Source: Spongospora subterranea (taxonomy: Eukaryota > Endomyxa > Phytomyxea > Plasmodiophorida > Plasmodiophoridae). Taken from it: DNA of 22,882 bases. A program made the position numbers and the translations under genes. Shown piece after piece: positions 3,535 to 14,500 of the stretch (position 1 is the stretch's first letter; each line of letters starts with the position of its first letter). The DNA lies in the NCBI GenBank assembly GCA_900404475.1, contig OUQQ01000308.1, positions 19,652 through 42,533 on the forward strand, read 5' to 3'. The notes under the pieces are model-generated. The model was given only the letters and a program-made list of their open reading frames with translations. It was not told where the DNA came from and ran no database searches.

Positions 3535-5348
3535 ATGGCGCCATCCTGTTTAATCCTGATATCTTCATTCTCTATTGTATATGTGGTGATGAGCCAATCT
3601 AATCCAGGCAGATGTGGACCTGATTTTGACAACGCTCAATGCAGCCCTGATAATTGGTACCATATCAACAGGTTCTCATGTTCTGTCTGATTGATCATCT
3701 GGGATTGTGTAGTTGCTCTGAGTATGGATATTGTGGCAATACTCCAGCTCATTGTAAACCTAGACAATCAGCAGGGTCTGCAATATTACCAGTTCCAGGA
3801 GGACTTGCACCTCCAAGACTCGATGGTCGATGTGGCCCAGCATTTGACAGCGCAAGTTGCATCATTGGGAATTGCTGCTCGAAATTCGGTCAGTGTGTGA
3901 TCTGTGGTGCTACGAAATATGGGAAATGTCTCAAGACATTGTCGTCTTAGGATTCTGTGGTAATACACCAGTTCACTGTGATTCTCAATCCATCTATCCG
4001 GTATTCAAAACTGCAACTCCATCAACGTCCCCTGTCACCAAACCCCCGGCACCGGGATCCAATCCGGTTCTGCCGCCCGCGACCAAATCAGCTGCAGCTT
4101 CACCGTCGCCCCAACAATCAACGGGTGCTCCTACAACAGCAGCACAACCATGTGGATTACAGCTGCCCTCATGTGCTCCTGGGAATTGCTGTTCCCAATG
4201 GGGATTCTGTGGTATGGTCCTCGTGGTCATGATCCCTAGTCTAAATGTCCATGATTGAGTCCCTGTTCCCCTACAGGTTCCAGCCCAGATCACTGCAATG
4301 ATCGGTCGATATACCCTCTGGTTCCATTCCCAACTCCCCCGCCAACCATCAGGGGAGATGGCAGATGTGGCAAGGATTACGATGGTGCTGCCTGCCCAAC
4401 TGGTCAATGCTGCTCACAATTCTGTAAGAGCCCATGGCCAAACTGCCCTGTTATGCTCATCCCGGCCTGTTATAGCCTTTTGTGGTGTTGGTCCACAGTT
4501 TTGTACAAGCGCTCCTTCTATTTCCAGCTCGTCAATTCAGACGCTTTTCACAAGGTCAATGTTCGACAGTCTGGTCAATACCAATCCATCTTGTGAAGGG
4601 CGTTCGATCTACACGTATGACGCCTTCATAAGGGCGGCCAGCTCCTTTCCCAAGTTCGGAAACGAGGGATCGCTTGATGCTCGCAAGCGTGATATTGCTG
4701 GATTCTTTGGCAATGCTATGCATGAATCACTGCAATTCTGCTACATCAACGAGCTCGCCCCAACGGTACGATCATCATATCGTGAATTAACGGATCATGA
4801 TCTGATGTCTGGCCTTTACAGACCCCTGCAACATATTGCTCAGCGTCGCCGACTTGGCCATGCTATCCAGGGGCGAATTACCATGGACGTGGGCCATTCC
4901 AATTGTCATGGGTAGTTAACCACTCATATCAATGCCAAAACCCAGATCCGGTTGACCTTTTGTTGGCAGAATTACAACTATATTCTGTTCGGTCAGACCT
5001 TGTCGCAAGCGCAAGCTAAGGCGATCTTCGAGACGCCTGATGCATTATCGGCGGATGGGGAGCTATTGTTCCGAGCTGCGTTGTGGTTCTATATGACACC
5101 ACAACCCCCTAAACAAGCAATGCACAGCGTTATGATTACAGATGTGCCACGATTCGGTGAGAGTATCAACATCATTAACGGTACGATGATGGTCATTGGA
5201 GGCTGTGCGATATCTGATCATGATCGAACTTTTAGGCGGTTTAGAATGTAATGGCGGTAATCCAGCACAAGTACAATCCCGAATCACCAATTACCAACGC
5301 GTCTGTAAGCTTCTAGGAACTGATCCAGGAACAAGTCTCACTTGCTGA
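3535..5348 (+). CDS. Secreted GH19 chitinase with four hevein-type (CBM18) domains
   Basis: Eight exons (3535-3656, 3713-3888, 3951-4211, 4277-4423, 4476-4765, 4822-4911, 4970-5180, 5236-5348) give 469 residues. Residues 1-20 form a signal peptide. Four six-cysteine hevein modules follow, with first Cys at 27, 81, 167 and 217. Each shows the CC...G/SxCG spacing. A Pro/Ser/Thr linker runs from about 118 to 165. The GH19 catalytic domain spans about 258-469. The motif HES (318-320) gives the general acid E319. INE gives E328, nine residues on, the spacing of loop-poor bacterial GH19 enzymes rather than the wider plant spacing. HGRGPFQLSWNYNY (353-366) and INIINGG (428-434) are family landmarks. 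The enzyme should cut chitin outside the cell, in wall remodelling or prey/host wall attack. Every splice joins a conserved motif, for example NCC, KFGFCG, WGFCG and SWNYNY. Introns are 52-65 nt. Confidence 0.93.
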
Positions 5349-6831: not shown

Positions 6832-8202
6832 ATGATTGATGGAGGAGAAGGAGGAGGCAACAGTATTGGGCTAGGTCCTCAACTTCCAACTCATACCCGG
6901 CTTCAGATCGTCTCGTTGCTAGATATAGCACCTCAGGATGTACCGGCCGTTGTATCCGCCGTGACATCAATCGTATCTTTGCAGTGGCCTCAAAAAGCTA
7001 CGCTCCTGCATATACTGCCTTTAGTGCACGATCCAGATGCAATGTGTCTTATCATGCTCCTATCATCAAAGGTTATCGGGTTTGCTAAGCTAATACGTGT
7101 CCAACGATCTCATCGGAATCTGGTTGGATTCCTGGCATGCCTGATAATTGATAAGGATCACCGTCATCAAGGTTTCGGTGCCTATTTTCTGGATGACGTC
7201 GAGCGTCGTGCTGCACAGTCGATGTATAGCCGCATTTATTTATCAGCTGAATTATCACCAATATTTTTCTCTGTGTCTGGGTATACACCATGCCCTTTAG
7301 TTCGTGACATTTTACATTCTCGGATAGTTACCTCAAGCATGCAACACTATCTCGCTCAAGCATCATCTAAAGTAGAATTGGGTGAGAAGCAATCCTGGGC
7401 GACCAAAGCGTTAATTGAAGAAAGGCCCATCGTTAATAGCAATTATGATTGGTGGTGGTCGCGCTTGCCATTTCATCTGAATGCATCCACAAGTTATTTG
7501 ATGTTTGTCCATTATCTGCCATGGAGTTCGCAAATTGGTCCCTCATGTGGTCTATCTGCCCTACGTATGTCCTGCCTAGCATCATGTGCAAGGTTTCACG
7601 GTTCTGTCGTTGATGGAAAGTATAATGCCATGAAGGTGCAGGAAACTACAGATTTCATTGCAAAATGCGCACCCTTCCAATCGATAAGAAGCGGAATCGA
7701 GACATTCGATATTTTCGAAGATCCGCCAAATATCAATCGGCGAATTTCGTTGCTCCAGACAGCGATTAAACTCAAATTCACCTGGATCGGAGAAATGTTC
7801 AACGCTTTGCATCTGGCATGTTTGGCGAAAAGTTACTGTGGTCTCAACGTTCAAGTGCATAAGGGAACATTCACCAAACGAGATATCCTTAACCACATAA
7901 TTAACCGGAAAAACATCATCTTAGCGTACGACAGAGGACCGAACCATCAACCAATTCTGAATGGTGGAAACTCTGCACATTGGGCGATTATCACCGGAAT
8001 CTTAATCAATATGGACACGAACCACATAGATGTCATCCTGCAGCATGGTTTGAGCCATTATCCATTGGTTGTTAAAGCTGATCTACTATTGGAATCAAAC
8101 AAACAGTTGACCGGTCCAATATCAAGCGCGTCCTGTTACCGGATTGGATCAGAGGGCATTCAGCTTGCACAATATTTCTTGGTAATGGATGCAGTTGCCT
8201 GA
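6832..8202 (+). CDS. NAA80-like actin N-acetyltransferase fused to ACTMAP-like actin maturation protease
   Basis: One uninterrupted 456-residue frame contains two enzymes. Residues about 25-165 are a GNAT acetyltransferase. QWPQKATLLHIL (51-62) followed by CLIMLL (72-77) resembles the NAA80 N-terminal region, and RHQGFGAYFL (111-120) is the acetyl-CoA-binding motif A. Residues about 222-455 match ACTMAP (C19orf54 family), a C39-like cysteine protease. Landmarks are GPSCGLSAL with nucleophile C239, GEMF (320-323), AYDRGPNHQP (365-374), AHWAIITG with H383, and ESNKQL (421-426). In animals ACTMAP removes the N-terminal acetylated Met or Cys of actin, and NAA80 acetylates the exposed acidic end. 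Here one polypeptide should do both, in the cytosol. The linker (166-221) is polar. It has no introns. It is convergent with HPRT, 169 bp apart. Assignments rest on remembered family patterns, not a search. Confidence 0.88.
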   Translation: MIDGGEGGGNSIGLGPQLPTHTRLQIVSLLDIAPQDVPAVVSAVTSIVSLQWPQKATLLHILPLVHDPDAMCLIMLLSSKVIGFAKLIRVQRSHRNLVGFLACLIIDKDHRHQGFGAYFLDDVERRAAQSMYSRIYLSAELSPIFFSVSGYTPCPLVRDILHSRIVTSSMQHYLAQASSKVELGEKQSWATKALIEERPIVNSNYDWWWSRLPFHLNASTSYLMFVHYLPWSSQIGPSCGLSALRMSCLASCARFHGSVVDGKYNAMKVQETTDFIAKCAPFQSIRSGIETFDIFEDPPNINRRISLLQTAIKLKFTWIGEMFNALHLACLAKSYCGLNVQVHKGTFTKRDILNHIINRKNIILAYDRGPNHQPILNGGNSAHWAIITGILINMDTNHIDVILQHGLSHYPLVVKADLLLESNKQLTGPISSASCYRIGSEGIQLAQYFLVMDAVA

Positions 8203-8371: not shown

Positions 8372-9233
8372 TTATTGGGGCAGTGCATTAGGATTAAGAA
8401 CTCCAATGAAGGGAAGACATCGATATTCCCGATCGAGGTCCCTAATGTGATGCAGTCAGGATTCGTTTCTATTCGAGATTACTACACATTGCTTACATTC
8501 CATATCCTACTACAAATTCATCTGGGCATTCCCAGCCTATATAATCAACATTAACATCCGAGACGCGTTTCACCTGAGTTTCAATCAATATCCATAATAT
8601 AAACAAGGGTGTGTTGAGGCACCTTCTTATCAAGTAGGCATGCAATCCGAATAGATTTGGCCTTTTTATGTGCCAGATGATTCTGAAGCCACAACAAAGT
8701 GGCCCCGGTATCAATCAAATCTTCAATGATGAGAACATGTCGACCTTCTGTATCAATAGAGATGTCTTTCTTGAGCAATACCTAGGCAGGAGATGTTACT
8801 ATCGACAATGGGGATGCTTTGAAAATACTACATTGCCTGTGCTGTTGGTACCATGGTATGAAGATAACGCCATAAAATCCAGTTCATATGCGATCGTCAA
8901 ATGGCGAAGTAAATCAGAAGCAAATAATACTGCCCCATTGAGTAGACCGATGGCAATAATTTTCTCGCCGACATAATCTAACAGATTTCAAACAAAGAAC
9001 CTGTCTTATACAAAAATATTGCACAGACCTTGGCTGATCTGAATTGCCATCTGTTTGACTCGTGACTGGATTTCAGCTCCAGTCCAAAGAACCTTGTCAA
9101 GGTTTCTAGACCATTCGGGAGGACATGGTTCTATGCTTTTCCAATGATAAGTATTTCCATGGCATGCATCAGTAGATGACCTACAGCTGTAGCTTTTCCT
9201 CTGGTGATAATTCGGAAGTATCGGTACCGTCAT
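8372..9233 (-). CDS. Hypoxanthine(-guanine) phosphoribosyltransferase (5 exons)
   Basis: Minus-strand exons are 9233-9029, 8977-8832, 8781-8623, 8573-8497 and 8441-8372, giving 218 residues. The enzyme joins hypoxanthine or guanine to PRPP in purine salvage, in the cytosol. The PRPP-binding loop IIEDLIDTGATL is at 135-146. GLLNGAVLFASDLLRHL (79-95) and the flexible-loop start SSYHGTN (107-113) are typical. The C-terminal part, VDYIGW...GYGMDLDREYRCLPFIGVL, is closest to the short bacterial-type HPRTs of about 180 residues. Residues 1-43 are an unrelated extension with no clear presequence, so the true start or an extra 5' intron is uncertain. The core begins near LDKVLWTGAEI (45-55). Introns are 49-55 nt. 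Xanthine use cannot be excluded. Confidence 0.9.
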
Positions 9234-9913
9234 CGGGTATCGGTACCAAGAGAGGTAGTCTGCATTTTAGAATATTGGAGAAATCGTGCAAAGCTGAAAA
9301 AAACACTTTATCGACGGCAAGGCGCTGTGGTTGCCTGGGCGTTGACTGCTGCATTTACAGAAATTGCACAAGCGATTATTATCTGCCGAGAAAGCAGGGA
9401 AACGGCCGATGCTGATCCAAATGAAACGCCGAAGATGTGCGTTGGTGTGACGTCGTTCGGAGATCCGGAAGGGGGGAGGCAGCCCGGGTTGACTGCACTC
9501 TGGCCACTGCCTCCAATGGGCTCTACCCAACGTCCTCTGCGAAGGAACCTCACCCTAAACACTCTTATCCCCGTTACTCTATCCAGTCACTACAGTAACA
9601 ACTATGTAACGTCCTGCCAATGATACCACTCTGTCACTTTTCGTTTTCTATTATCGTTAGCGACTCTGTTTAGTTACCACTCTGGGCATTAACGTTTTCT
9701 GCCATTGTAATGGCCCTGTTTATGAATACAAAAAATTAATTTCCTGGATGAAACCCAAATCTCGTGGCGATATTTCCCAGCAATCAACGAATAAGTACAT
9801 GAATTTGGGTGAGGAATATACCGAGAGTCACAGGAGATGGGCTGGGGATAAATCAACTAGCTGTGATCGAGACAGGATCAGGGGCAGCCAACCAGGGAGA
9901 CAGACGAGGGGAT
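9234..9913. other. Divergent region between HPRT and IFT57
   Basis: The 680 bp must carry the HPRT and IFT57 promoters. Open frames on both strands (for example 9308-9562 minus and 9204-9623 plus) lack an ATG start and known motifs. The minus frame has an Ala/Ser/Ile-rich stretch that could pass for one membrane span. I do not call either. In-frame ATGs upstream of the IFT57 start lie at 9809 and beyond. Confidence 0.4.
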
Positions 9914-11400
9914 ATGAGCAGCGATCAGCGAGATGATGGGAGACGGCGGGGATCGGATACCACCGTATGGCCCGACGGATCCACGTTGGCGCTGATGGAT
10001 GAGGTTATCGACAAATTAAAGCTCCTCGACTACGAGACGACGTTCTGCGCGGTGAAGGCGTTTCCTCCTATTGATCGAATATTATTCACGATCCCATCTC
10101 GAATATCTCCATTCCCGTATTTCTCGGCTCTTGTCTCGTGGGCCCTGAAACTGGCCAAGGTCGAGTTCGTGGACTGGGAATTCGATGATCCATCCACGAC
10201 CTGCACCAATATGGTAATTGAGGTCACTAAATTAGGGTTCGTAGCTGATTTCCCTGCTGCTAAAGTAATTCTTCACAATTGGCCTGTCTCATGATATTGA
10301 CTATATCCTGTTTGTAGCTAAAGCCAGGTCTTGGAGTTCACGTCCTCACTCTGTTGCGTTTCGTTCTGGACAGAGCTCTTCGTGTCAAAGGCGTCCGCCT
10401 GATGAAACCGAGCTACGATCTGGGGAATACAGGAGATGTGGTTGAGGAGGTGATCGCGACCTGATATACGGGAGCCATCATTGTTGAGGATCTGATGGGT
10501 TTCACAGGGCAACGATGATGTGGTTGATGAGGATATCGGCGAAAGAGGTGTTGGTGGGGCGCCCGATGAGGATCAGGATGATATGGTGGGGGGCGACGAT
10601 TTAGAGTATGATGAGTTATATTGTAATGAGAGTGGGCAATATGATGGGGGTGATGATAAAGCAGTAGCGCCATCGGCAATGATGGAGTCGTCTGTGCGGA
10701 TATTGATATCGTCATTCGTTGTGGTCAGATTTTGAGTTAATTTGGATATACACAGGTAGATCCGACGGAATGGAAATTAGAGCTAGAAAGGGTGGCACCA
10801 TTGCTGAAGGTGAAGATGTCGGGGAGTGCCAAGGAATGGAGAACCCATCTTGATTCGATCCTGAAGCACCATTCGCTGATCTGCGACATATTCCCGGATA
10901 TCGACCAGCAATTGGGGAAGATCGGGTCGCAGTTCACTGAGATATCGCAAAGGATAACGGCACAGGAACGGCATATCCAGGAGAAATTCACACATCTTGG
11001 GGCAGAGTTCAAAGAGAAACAAGCTCAGGTATTGGGATTGGATGGGATTTGGATGAGAAAGGTCTGGTGAAGATCTGACCACAATCAGATCGATTCGATC
11101 ACCGGAGAATGTGGTAAACTATCTGGGGATGTCGCCTCAATGAGCGAGTCCTTAGCGATGAAGGTCGACGAACTGGAGACGATGAAGAAGCAGCTCGATT
11201 CTCGCAGCGATTCCATGACCGATACCAGTCCATTGCGACGGATCCGGGGCGCCCTGATCGAGCTGCGGGCCGAGATCAAACGGATGGAGCTGCACATTGG
11301 TATCCTACGCCATACTCTATTGAATGAGAACTTGGCGATATCAAAGAAGACGGGATCGGACTATCTACACCATGGGGTGTTAACAGCCCCCATTCGTTAA
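9914..11400 (+). CDS. IFT57: Intraflagellar transport protein IFT57 (5 exons)
   Basis: Exons 9914-10264, 10318-10449, 10508-10693, 10756-11028 and 11089-11400 give 417 residues, close to the animal protein (about 429). All four introns (53, 58, 62 and 60 nt) are phase 0. The N-terminal calponin-homology-like domain begins at MDEVIDKLKLLDYE (28-41). Its landmarks are FTIPSR, FDDPSTTCTNMV and DFPAAKV. An acidic linker (exon 3) follows, as in other IFT57s. VDPTEWKLELERV and KEWRTHLD then lead into a coiled-coil half, ending with the SMTDTSPLRRI, MELHIGILRHTLL pattern of the family. IFT57 is a peripheral IFT-B subunit that works with IFT20, IFT38, IFT54, IFT80 and IFT172 in building cilia. Its presence means the organism makes, or recently made, a flagellum. 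The start could instead be ATG 9809, adding 35 residues. Confidence 0.92.
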
Positions 11401-11594
11401 CCAAAATAAACCGCCTTCGAATCCGTAAGAGAATCAGTTCCAGGGGCGTGATGGGATTCCCTCGAGGGATTTCTGCACAATAACGGGTTTGAACAGGAGT
11501 GCTTGTGCTGGATTCGCGTGCCCATCCAGCTCGACCGTTTCAGGGCTTGGTTGGGGGCCAGTAGGGGGGATAAGGCCATTTGCTTTGTGGGGAT

Positions 11595-14500
11595 ATGTCT
11601 GGGGTAATATCATCCCCAACTGGCATAGTACCAGAACGACACAATTACCGCCTGTCCGGTCACGATGAACATCAGATCCATATCGGGAACGGGTCACCGG
11701 ATGCGGATGAGGTGTCGAGGCGGCCAATACCCGAGACCGTATATGCGGTCGACGAGAGCGATCCAGACGAGGACCAGACAGAACAGGATCGGGTGGAGGC
11801 CACGAGTGGATTAGACCATTGCTTGCGTCGTGTGGATGGTCGTCCTCATCAATATTCAGTGGTCGGGTGTAATTCCCCAGTACTATGGCGATCTCAATCC
11901 CCAGCTCTCCTGTTCAAGGGCATCACCATATCGATTGTCGTCACGATGTATAACGAGTCCAGGTATGGATCTCGTCATCTGAAACCGCTCCATCCTGATC
12001 AAGTATCGATCAGCGATGACCTATTACTCACATTACGAGGGATTTGTAAATGCGTCAAATTCATGTGCAAAAAAACGGGCGATCCGGAATTATGGAGGAG
12101 GATATCAGTGACGATTGTGGTTGATGGACGTGAGAAATTATCAGATTCGGTCCAGGAATCGTGCAGATTACTGAACATGACGGATCCGTTGACGATGGAG
12201 AAACTGGCCAAATCCAACCCGAACATCGCTCTGCACCTGTTCGAATGCGCTCCATCGTTTGCAGATGAAGGGGATAAAACGGCGTATCCACCAATACAGA
12301 TAATATGGGCGATAAAAGAGCAGAATTGTGGGAAGATCAACAGGTGCTCAATCGATGTCGGAAAGTTGAAAACGCAATATCGTGTTGAACAGTTGATGTT
12401 GCTGTGTTCAGCCATTGGTGGTATTTCGAAGGAATCGCTCATATACAGGCGCCAAAGTACTGCTTCCTGGTCGATATCGGAACGAAACCGCGGCGATCGA
12501 GCTTCTACTGGTTCTGGAGACATCTGACGATGGATGAATCTGTAGGTGGTGTGTGTGGACAGATAACCACAATCGATAAAGGGTTATCATTATGCAATCC
12601 GATTATTGGATCACAGCATTTTGAGTACAAGGTCAGTCCGCAATTAGCCGTGTTTTCGTCTATTGTTAATCAGATTGATTCATCAGCAAATATGGCACAG
12701 TTTCATCTGGGGGTTCTCATGTGCTGGTTTTGTGGGATTTACCGATTGGTTACCTGTGAAGTGATTTTATTGGATGATTTAGGTCGCGTCTGTATTGGAT
12801 AAATCATTCGAATCGGTTCTTGGGTATATGGCCGTACTGCCAGGCGCCTTCTCGGCCTATCGATATTCGGCAATCGTTGGTCAGCCGCTTCGTGCGTACT
12901 TCCATCAGCTGTTCGTGTCTGATGTTGACCTGGACCCGTTCGTGACGAACATGATGCTGGCCGAGGATCGGGTCCTGTGCTATGAGGTAATCCATCACAT
13001 GTCGCATGCCGATTGATCAATCTCATCGCCCATCGCCATTACAGCTGATCGCAAAGAAAAACGCCTGTCATGTTCTGCACTATTTGAACTCGGCCATCGC
13101 CGAGACCGATGTGCCCGATACATTGGGGAAACTCATCAAACAGAGGCGACGATGGCTGAACGGCTCGTTCTTCGCCCTGATTCACACGCTTCGCCATTAC
13201 AACTCCTTCTACAATCAGACGAGTCATCGACCATTGAGGAAGGCGGCCATTACCTTTGAGTTCATCTACTTCACTATCGCCGTTATCGTCCAATGGTTTA
13301 CAATTGGGCTATTCGGTCTCATCAACGTCTTCGTTCTGTCGGAATTTAAAGTGAACCCCGTCTACATCTATATCATTAGCGGTATCTACATTGGGTTCGT
13401 ACTGGGCCAGATCGTGTTGGCGATCAAGAACGACCCAATCGGTCTGTCGACATGGTATTCCCTCAGCAGCTTCAGCATCGGTGCCTGTTTCATCGCGCTG
13501 AGTATCCTGACCATCTGCCTGTCGTGGAGCCAGATCCGGTCGGCAGACCCACTGGTGCTCGTAACGGTATGTGCCCAACTCCACCCTGGGACTGACTGCC
13601 CATCCTACTTTGCCGAACCAGGGTCTATGGGCCTTCGCCAATCTCACAGTGGTGCTCATAGACCCCGGTTTGGGCGTCCCCAACGTTTATAGTGGCACTG
13701 ACACCCCGTTTCTTGTTTCGCTCAGCTGTTTCTTTCGTTCGGCACATATCTCCTGGCTGCATTGCTTCATGGGAGCCTGTCAACCCTGATTACATCATTC
13801 ATAGCATATATCTATATGATGCCTACATTCCTGATCATACTGCCCATATTTGCCTTCACAAATGTTAATGATGTGTCCTGGGGAACGAAAAACCGTAATT
13901 CTCTGTGGGTTTTCGGTTCGATCGGCCAACGATGATTTCTTGATAGTCAACACTGCCGCATTCGAAAACCAAAATACGACAGAAAGCGTCAGATCACAAG
14001 TGGCGATGAGGTTTCATCTGTTCAGGCTGAAGCTGTTATTTTTATGGTTGTCGTCCAACGTAATACCTGTTCTAATCACCAGATCTGGCACGATTTTAAC
14101 CTGTCTGATCCCCATTGAATTGTTGTTTTTGGTAATATGTCAGGTCGGTATTGCCGTCCTATCTGTGTATTATCAAATTGGCCATATATTCCTATACCTA
14201 ATCCTAGCTGTATTAGTATTCCTCAACGGGTAAAATAGCTCAACGCTATTCCACGAACGCTGACCTCACCCCGGTTTCCTCAGGTCTCGCTTCATTGGAT
14301 CGCTCGTCTATCTATTCGGCCATAACGCCAGTCCTTCAATGATGGTGAAGATGATCCTGGCGCCAATCCGTCCCAATGTCTGGCTATCGCTAGTCAAGCT
14401 ACCGTTCTCGGTCATCATATCATCTATTGGACTCATTGTTGTCATGTTCTCGTTTTTCTGTCCGATATCCCCATTACTATCGGGTTTAGCTCGCCTGGAT

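Follow-up and report, generated by a model that had tools for sequence, protein, structure and literature searches.

The window, that is, the whole stretch of 22,882 nucleotides analysed here, contains at positions 6832–8202 a gene whose product joins an NAA80-like GNAT domain to an ACTMAP-like protease half; this gene and all its features described below lie on the plus strand. As stated in the initial annotation, it consists of a single open frame, which runs from ATG to TGA (456 codons plus stop) without an internal stop. An in-frame stop lies 7 codons 5′ of the ATG, and the open stretch around the frame amounts to 462 codons. When 100 sequences as long as the window were simulated with a first-order Markov model, the longest six-frame open stretch averaged 169 codons and never exceeded 264. 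The two halves are connected by a linker of approximately residues 159–205 (7306–7446, limits inferred) that is open in frame, contains no polyproline, and in the assembled sequence shows neither a stop nor a frame break. The fusion is known from one assembly, which would suit an artefact of assembly or annotation, either two genes misjoined or a linker that is in fact an intron with two transcripts. An in-frame join of 456 codons without a stop, a length never seen in the simulated sequences, makes such an artefact scarcely credible. When the fusion protein was compared with the genome assembly (20,588,268 bases, or 20.6 Mb, in 679 contigs), it matched at its own locus only (E up to 0.001).

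The GNAT domain, delimited by Pfam, by a search of PDB sequences and by searches with NAA80 fragments, spans residues 36–158 (6937–7305). Pfam places Acetyltransf_1 (PF00583) at residues 53–138 with an E value of 1.2e-7. When residues 1–183 were compared with PDB sequences, the best two matches were fly CG8481 (E = 1e-4) and human NAA80 (E = 2.2e-4), followed by a 'predicted acetyltransferase' (E = 0.076); the NAA80s were the only 2 of the 13 matches listed up to E 10 that fell below 0.01. NCBIfam returned GNAT matches only, all far under cut-off, with bacterial GNAT models reaching E = 4.9e-5 (22.9 bits, cut-off 125). A fragment of fly NAA80, searched against the genome with a limit of E 10, led to this locus only (one first-pass candidate, E = 7.6e-4). 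Among the 18 GNAT matches listed for PF00583 in the genome, the fusion locus was the best against both NAA80 fragments. By blastp, it gave E values of 1.7e-5 (fly) and 1.4e-7 (human) against 0.002 and 0.007 for the runner-up, and by phmmer, 2.7e-5 and 1.4e-5 against 0.0065 and 4.3e-4; the last margin, that obtained with the human fragment, is modest. The runner-up locus, C3:22949-23080, was set aside as an NAA80 candidate because its residues look like those of Elp3. By these comparisons NAA80 appears to be the GNAT to which this half is most closely related, and both the top two PDB matches and the rank of the locus within the genome bear out the NAA80 resemblance first proposed for it.

Of the motifs on which this resemblance had been founded, QWP at residues 51–53 and RHQGFG at residues 111–116 (7162–7179) are found in the translation. 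RHQGFG, the acetyl-CoA motif, lies within the GNAT domain and aligns with RGQGFG in fly NAA80 and RGRGFG in human NAA80, so that the RxxGxG motif is kept. The fusion thus has the GNAT family, the WP substrate loop and RxxGFG in common with NAA80/NatH (human NAA80, fly CG8481), and differs from it in that a protease is attached, that two arginines are replaced, and that the host is probably not an animal. The arginines belong to the substrate loop between α1 and α2, identified as QWPQKATLL (residues 51–59, 6982–7008) in a MAFFT alignment with fly and human NAA80. The peptide contacts of the fly enzyme, as given in PMC10318143, are W36, R38, R43, S124, T125 and I126. The fusion keeps two of these six (Trp52 and Ser138): in the MAFFT alignment Gln54 and Leu58 align with fly R38/R43 (human R107/R112), and Ala139 and Glu140 align with T125 and I126. 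Four of these contacts are present in human NAA80 (the tryptophan, both arginines and T125), which differs at S124 and I126. Overall, the fusion is identical to fly NAA80 at 29 of 118 aligned positions and to human NAA80 at 31 of 120, compared with 47 of 121 between fly and human. The second fly arginine is paired with Leu58 by MAFFT and with His60 by phmmer; neither counterpart of R38/R43 is an arginine, and Lys55 and His60, which lie nearby, could act as stand-ins. Judged from the alignment, the loss of the acid-binding arginines is nevertheless a real gap in the reading of this domain as an actin NAA80. It would fit a scheme in which the protease half alone acts on actin, the GNAT domain serving for docking or modifying another target and the new N-terminus being left free or capped by another enzyme. 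I consider this scheme improbable, as the RHQGFG motif and Trp52 are intact and the GNAT half still matches NAA80 best.

A further feature of the GNAT half concerns docking. Human NAA80 carries a polyproline loop that is bound by profilin 2 and is missing in insects, according to PMC7864067. The fusion lacks such a loop, like insect NAA80 and unlike human NAA80: it contains no polyproline, and its single PP pair is at residue 298. Since polyproline is missing, docking may be performed by the protease half. The profilin model PF00235 gave no match in the genome, but it gave none in the controls either.

The second half of the protein, a cysteine protease of papain/C39 type, covers approximately residues 206–456 (7447–8199, with a putative N-terminal limit). 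Its core was recognized by Pfam as ACTMAP-like_C (PF21646) at residues 306–391 (7747–8004), with an E value of 3.5e-24 and 85.9 bits (cut-off 27), in agreement with the ACTMAP resemblance initially suggested for this half. PF21646 had no other match in the genome (E up to 1); a single copy of each half was thus detected in the assembly. The four protease blocks reported previously are all in place, starting at residues 236 (GPSCGL), 320 (GEMF, 7789–7800), 371 (NHQP) and 382 (AHWAIITG). The PF21646 core, which includes GEMF and AHWAIITG with its His-Trp block, is shared with ACTMAP/C19orf54, and the cysteine of GPSCGL would be a further common feature; the difference is that in the fusion the protease sits behind a GNAT domain. 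Cys239 (7546–7548), in a block that is common to a bacterial relative described below, is the presumed nucleophile, and His383 (7978–7980) the other member of the presumed catalytic pair. The nucleophile of human ACTMAP is C132 (PMC13367750), of which Cys239 is the putative counterpart. No Pfam model covers the stretch around the Cys block at E up to 10, and no relative of the protease half was detected among PDB sequences at E up to 10. An alignment of the fusion with the bacterial relative (A1) gave four PDB matches, the best of which, a colicin (E = 0.021), was rejected as a relative of the protease because the match (profile positions 72–166) leaves out both the Cys and the His blocks. A single-sequence AlphaFold prediction of the fusion yielded a useless model (mean pLDDT 33.7). 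As far as Pfam and PDB sequences go, the halves did not prove to match unrelated families.

The bacterial relative is a hypothetical protein of 236 residues from Azospirillum sp. B510, WP_042444951.1. It was picked up in a tblastn search of plasmids at an E value of 8 only, and was then confirmed by Pfam, which assigns it to PF21646 above the cut-off (E = 1.3e-9). Its locus is on plasmid pAB510b (L042:1809-2519), and both the Cys and the His blocks are present. It is 30% identical to the fusion and has the SQ[IR]GP[ST]CG, IGE[MV]F and His-Trp blocks in common with it; thus family and blocks are the same, but the Azospirillum protein is bacterial and stands alone; none of its four listed neighbours is annotated as a GNAT. 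Two consequences follow. Since PF21646 also occurs in a bacterium, the family name alone is no proof of a role in actin processing, and the argument for actin rests on the NAA80-like pairing and on the actin N-terminus rather than on PF21646. Moreover, the occurrence of this protein suggests, on sequence grounds, that the family to which the actin maturation protease belongs arose in prokaryotes or is very ancient. No further relatives of the Azospirillum protein were found in plasmids or phages. The fusion itself had no relatives in phages (tblastn, E 1e-3) and matched plasmids by tblastn at E 0.2 or worse only (6 records; 3 records). No relative was confirmed in viral contigs scanned with the fusion, the Azospirillum protein and alignment A1, or in prokaryote genomes scanned with the fusion by peptide patterns; because each scan used 2–6 short peptide patterns, distant relatives could be missed.

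Bacteria also possess chains that combine an acetyltransferase with a papain-like domain, as the fusion does. PMC10318531 describes members of the DUF3335 family as papain-like and often joined to GCN5-related acetyltransferases. The fusion might accordingly be considered a eukaryotic member of this group, modifying peptides and unrelated to actin. However, the DUF3335 model PF11814 had no match in the fusion protein at E up to 10 and none in the genome (the identical search was positive in 1 of 14 control genomes), and PF21646 is found in the protease half instead. I regard such a kinship as very improbable.

The nature of the potential substrate was examined in the same genome, where nine actin-family matches are distributed over five contigs. 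The best match, on contig C241, is a conventional actin of 376 residues, obtained by joining a 40-nt first exon over a 56-nt GT-AG intron (predicted splice). Compared with conventional actins from the PDB, it gave E values from 1.5e-229 to 1.2e-221 (among the best 60 of 107 matches). The second-best match (C309) is Arp2, and the piece on C249 is nearest to Arp1 (70 bits against 64 for actins); the remaining actin-family contigs are C251 and C379. Among the contigs classified (C241, C309 and C249), one conventional actin gene was found. The first exon and the intron lie at L002:1409-1504, and the intron donor, GTTCTT, is unusual; gene finders could miss this tiny 40-nt exon, although it encodes the decisive N-terminal residues. 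The predicted N-terminus is Met-Cys-Asp-Glu-Glu, to all appearances the animal class II form and the type of substrate used by ACTMAP and NAA80. In class II actins, according to PMC10318143, the methionine is removed and the cysteine acetylated, after which ACTMAP cleaves away the acetyl-cysteine and NAA80 acetylates the acidic residue thus exposed; PMC13367750 and PMC11465159 cover the ACTMAP step and the class II N-terminus, respectively.

Taken together, these data make it probable that the fusion is a bifunctional enzyme of actin N-terminal maturation, contained in one chain, in a non-animal flagellated eukaryote, probably of the fungal lineage. Nascent actin, beginning with Met-Cys-Asp-Glu-Glu, would lose its methionine and be acetylated on cysteine by general enzymes, as is known for animal class II actins. 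The C-terminal ACTMAP-like protease (Cys239/His383) would then cut off acetyl-cysteine, exposing Asp-Glu-Glu, and the N-terminal NAA80-like GNAT would acetylate the exposed aspartate. Being in one chain, both active domains would stay with a single G-actin molecule, and the fusion could in this way substitute for the profilin tether of vertebrate NAA80. Domain order along the chain need not mirror reaction order. Whereas the fusion, the family of each half, the single copy detected for each and the start of the actin are read off the sequence, the two activities, the order in which they act and any hand-over between the domains are deductions. The coupling of actin trimming and acetylation in one enzyme, as originally put forward, therefore stands in part: both families, the single frame and a Met-Cys-acidic actin speak for it, while the replaced NAA80 substrate arginines and the bacterial occurrence of PF21646 weigh against it. 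The latter two observations, loss of the acid-binding arginines and a family that takes in a bacterial protein carrying these motif blocks, would also be accounted for if the fused enzyme had a target different from actin, which it would trim and acetylate with an ACTMAP-like peptidase combined with an NAA80-related GNAT of different specificity. This is rather unlikely, given that the two partners joined here are those known to act in turn on actin, in animals as separate proteins, that the actin of this genome has an N-terminus of the processed type, and that searches of the genome revealed no ACTMAP-like or NAA80-like locus apart from this one.

Three papers (PMC10318143, PMC11465159, PMC7790372) describe either the processing of actin or the enzyme responsible as animal-specific. 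If the maturation of actin by a fused enzyme is correct, the occurrence of the joined enzymes in a flagellate that makes chitin and glucan and has an animal-type actin start would shift the origin of the pathway. It is about as likely as not that, more broadly, animals did not invent the maturation of the actin N-terminus: in a flagellate of the fungal lineage, one protein would cut off acetyl-cysteine and re-acetylate the aspartate on the same bound actin, the pathway would predate animals or have arisen beside them, and the protease would derive from an older family of which a member is left in at least one bacterium. The fusion would also tie the two enzymes together independently of human genetics, by gene fusion, and would offer one protein for studying trimming and capping together. 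No description of an NAA80-ACTMAP fusion was found in the literature searched, the ACTMAP discovery paper being outside that search. Fungal proteins that join ACTMAP and NAA80 may have been mentioned by Haahr et al. in 2022 or in nearby work.

The surroundings of the gene and the rest of the genome give some indications about the organism, which in all probability does not belong to the animals. The first part of an IFT57 gene lies at positions 9809–10294 of the window (plus strand; PF10498, E = 1.2e-17), and its presence implies that the organism probably builds a flagellum. A chitin synthase gene with several exons follows at 11580–13692 (plus strand), PF01644 being split across two frames and a third frame giving a match to PF03142 under the cut-off. 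Eight matches to 1,3-beta-glucan synthase, all on contig C411, were recorded in the genome; animals are not known to possess this enzyme. Together with a GH19 chitinase in the window, IFT57 and the two polysaccharide synthases make a flagellated fungus, or a close relative of one, the most likely host. There are three Zn_clus matches, and Fungal_trans (PF04082) had no match in the genome, but none in the controls either. A fragment of RPB2 did not tell the lineages apart, scoring 105 bits against mammalian-type chains and 101–102 bits against yeast-type chains. On the minus strand (8570–9100), converging on the fusion gene, lies a frame reading LIIEDLIDTGATLLWL, which resembles part of an intron-containing hypoxanthine phosphoribosyltransferase gene. 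Finally, pieces of Chitin_bind_1 (PF00187) and of a GH19 chitinase (PF00182) occur in neighbouring frames at 3857–4912 (plus strand) and probably represent one intron-bearing chitinase gene.
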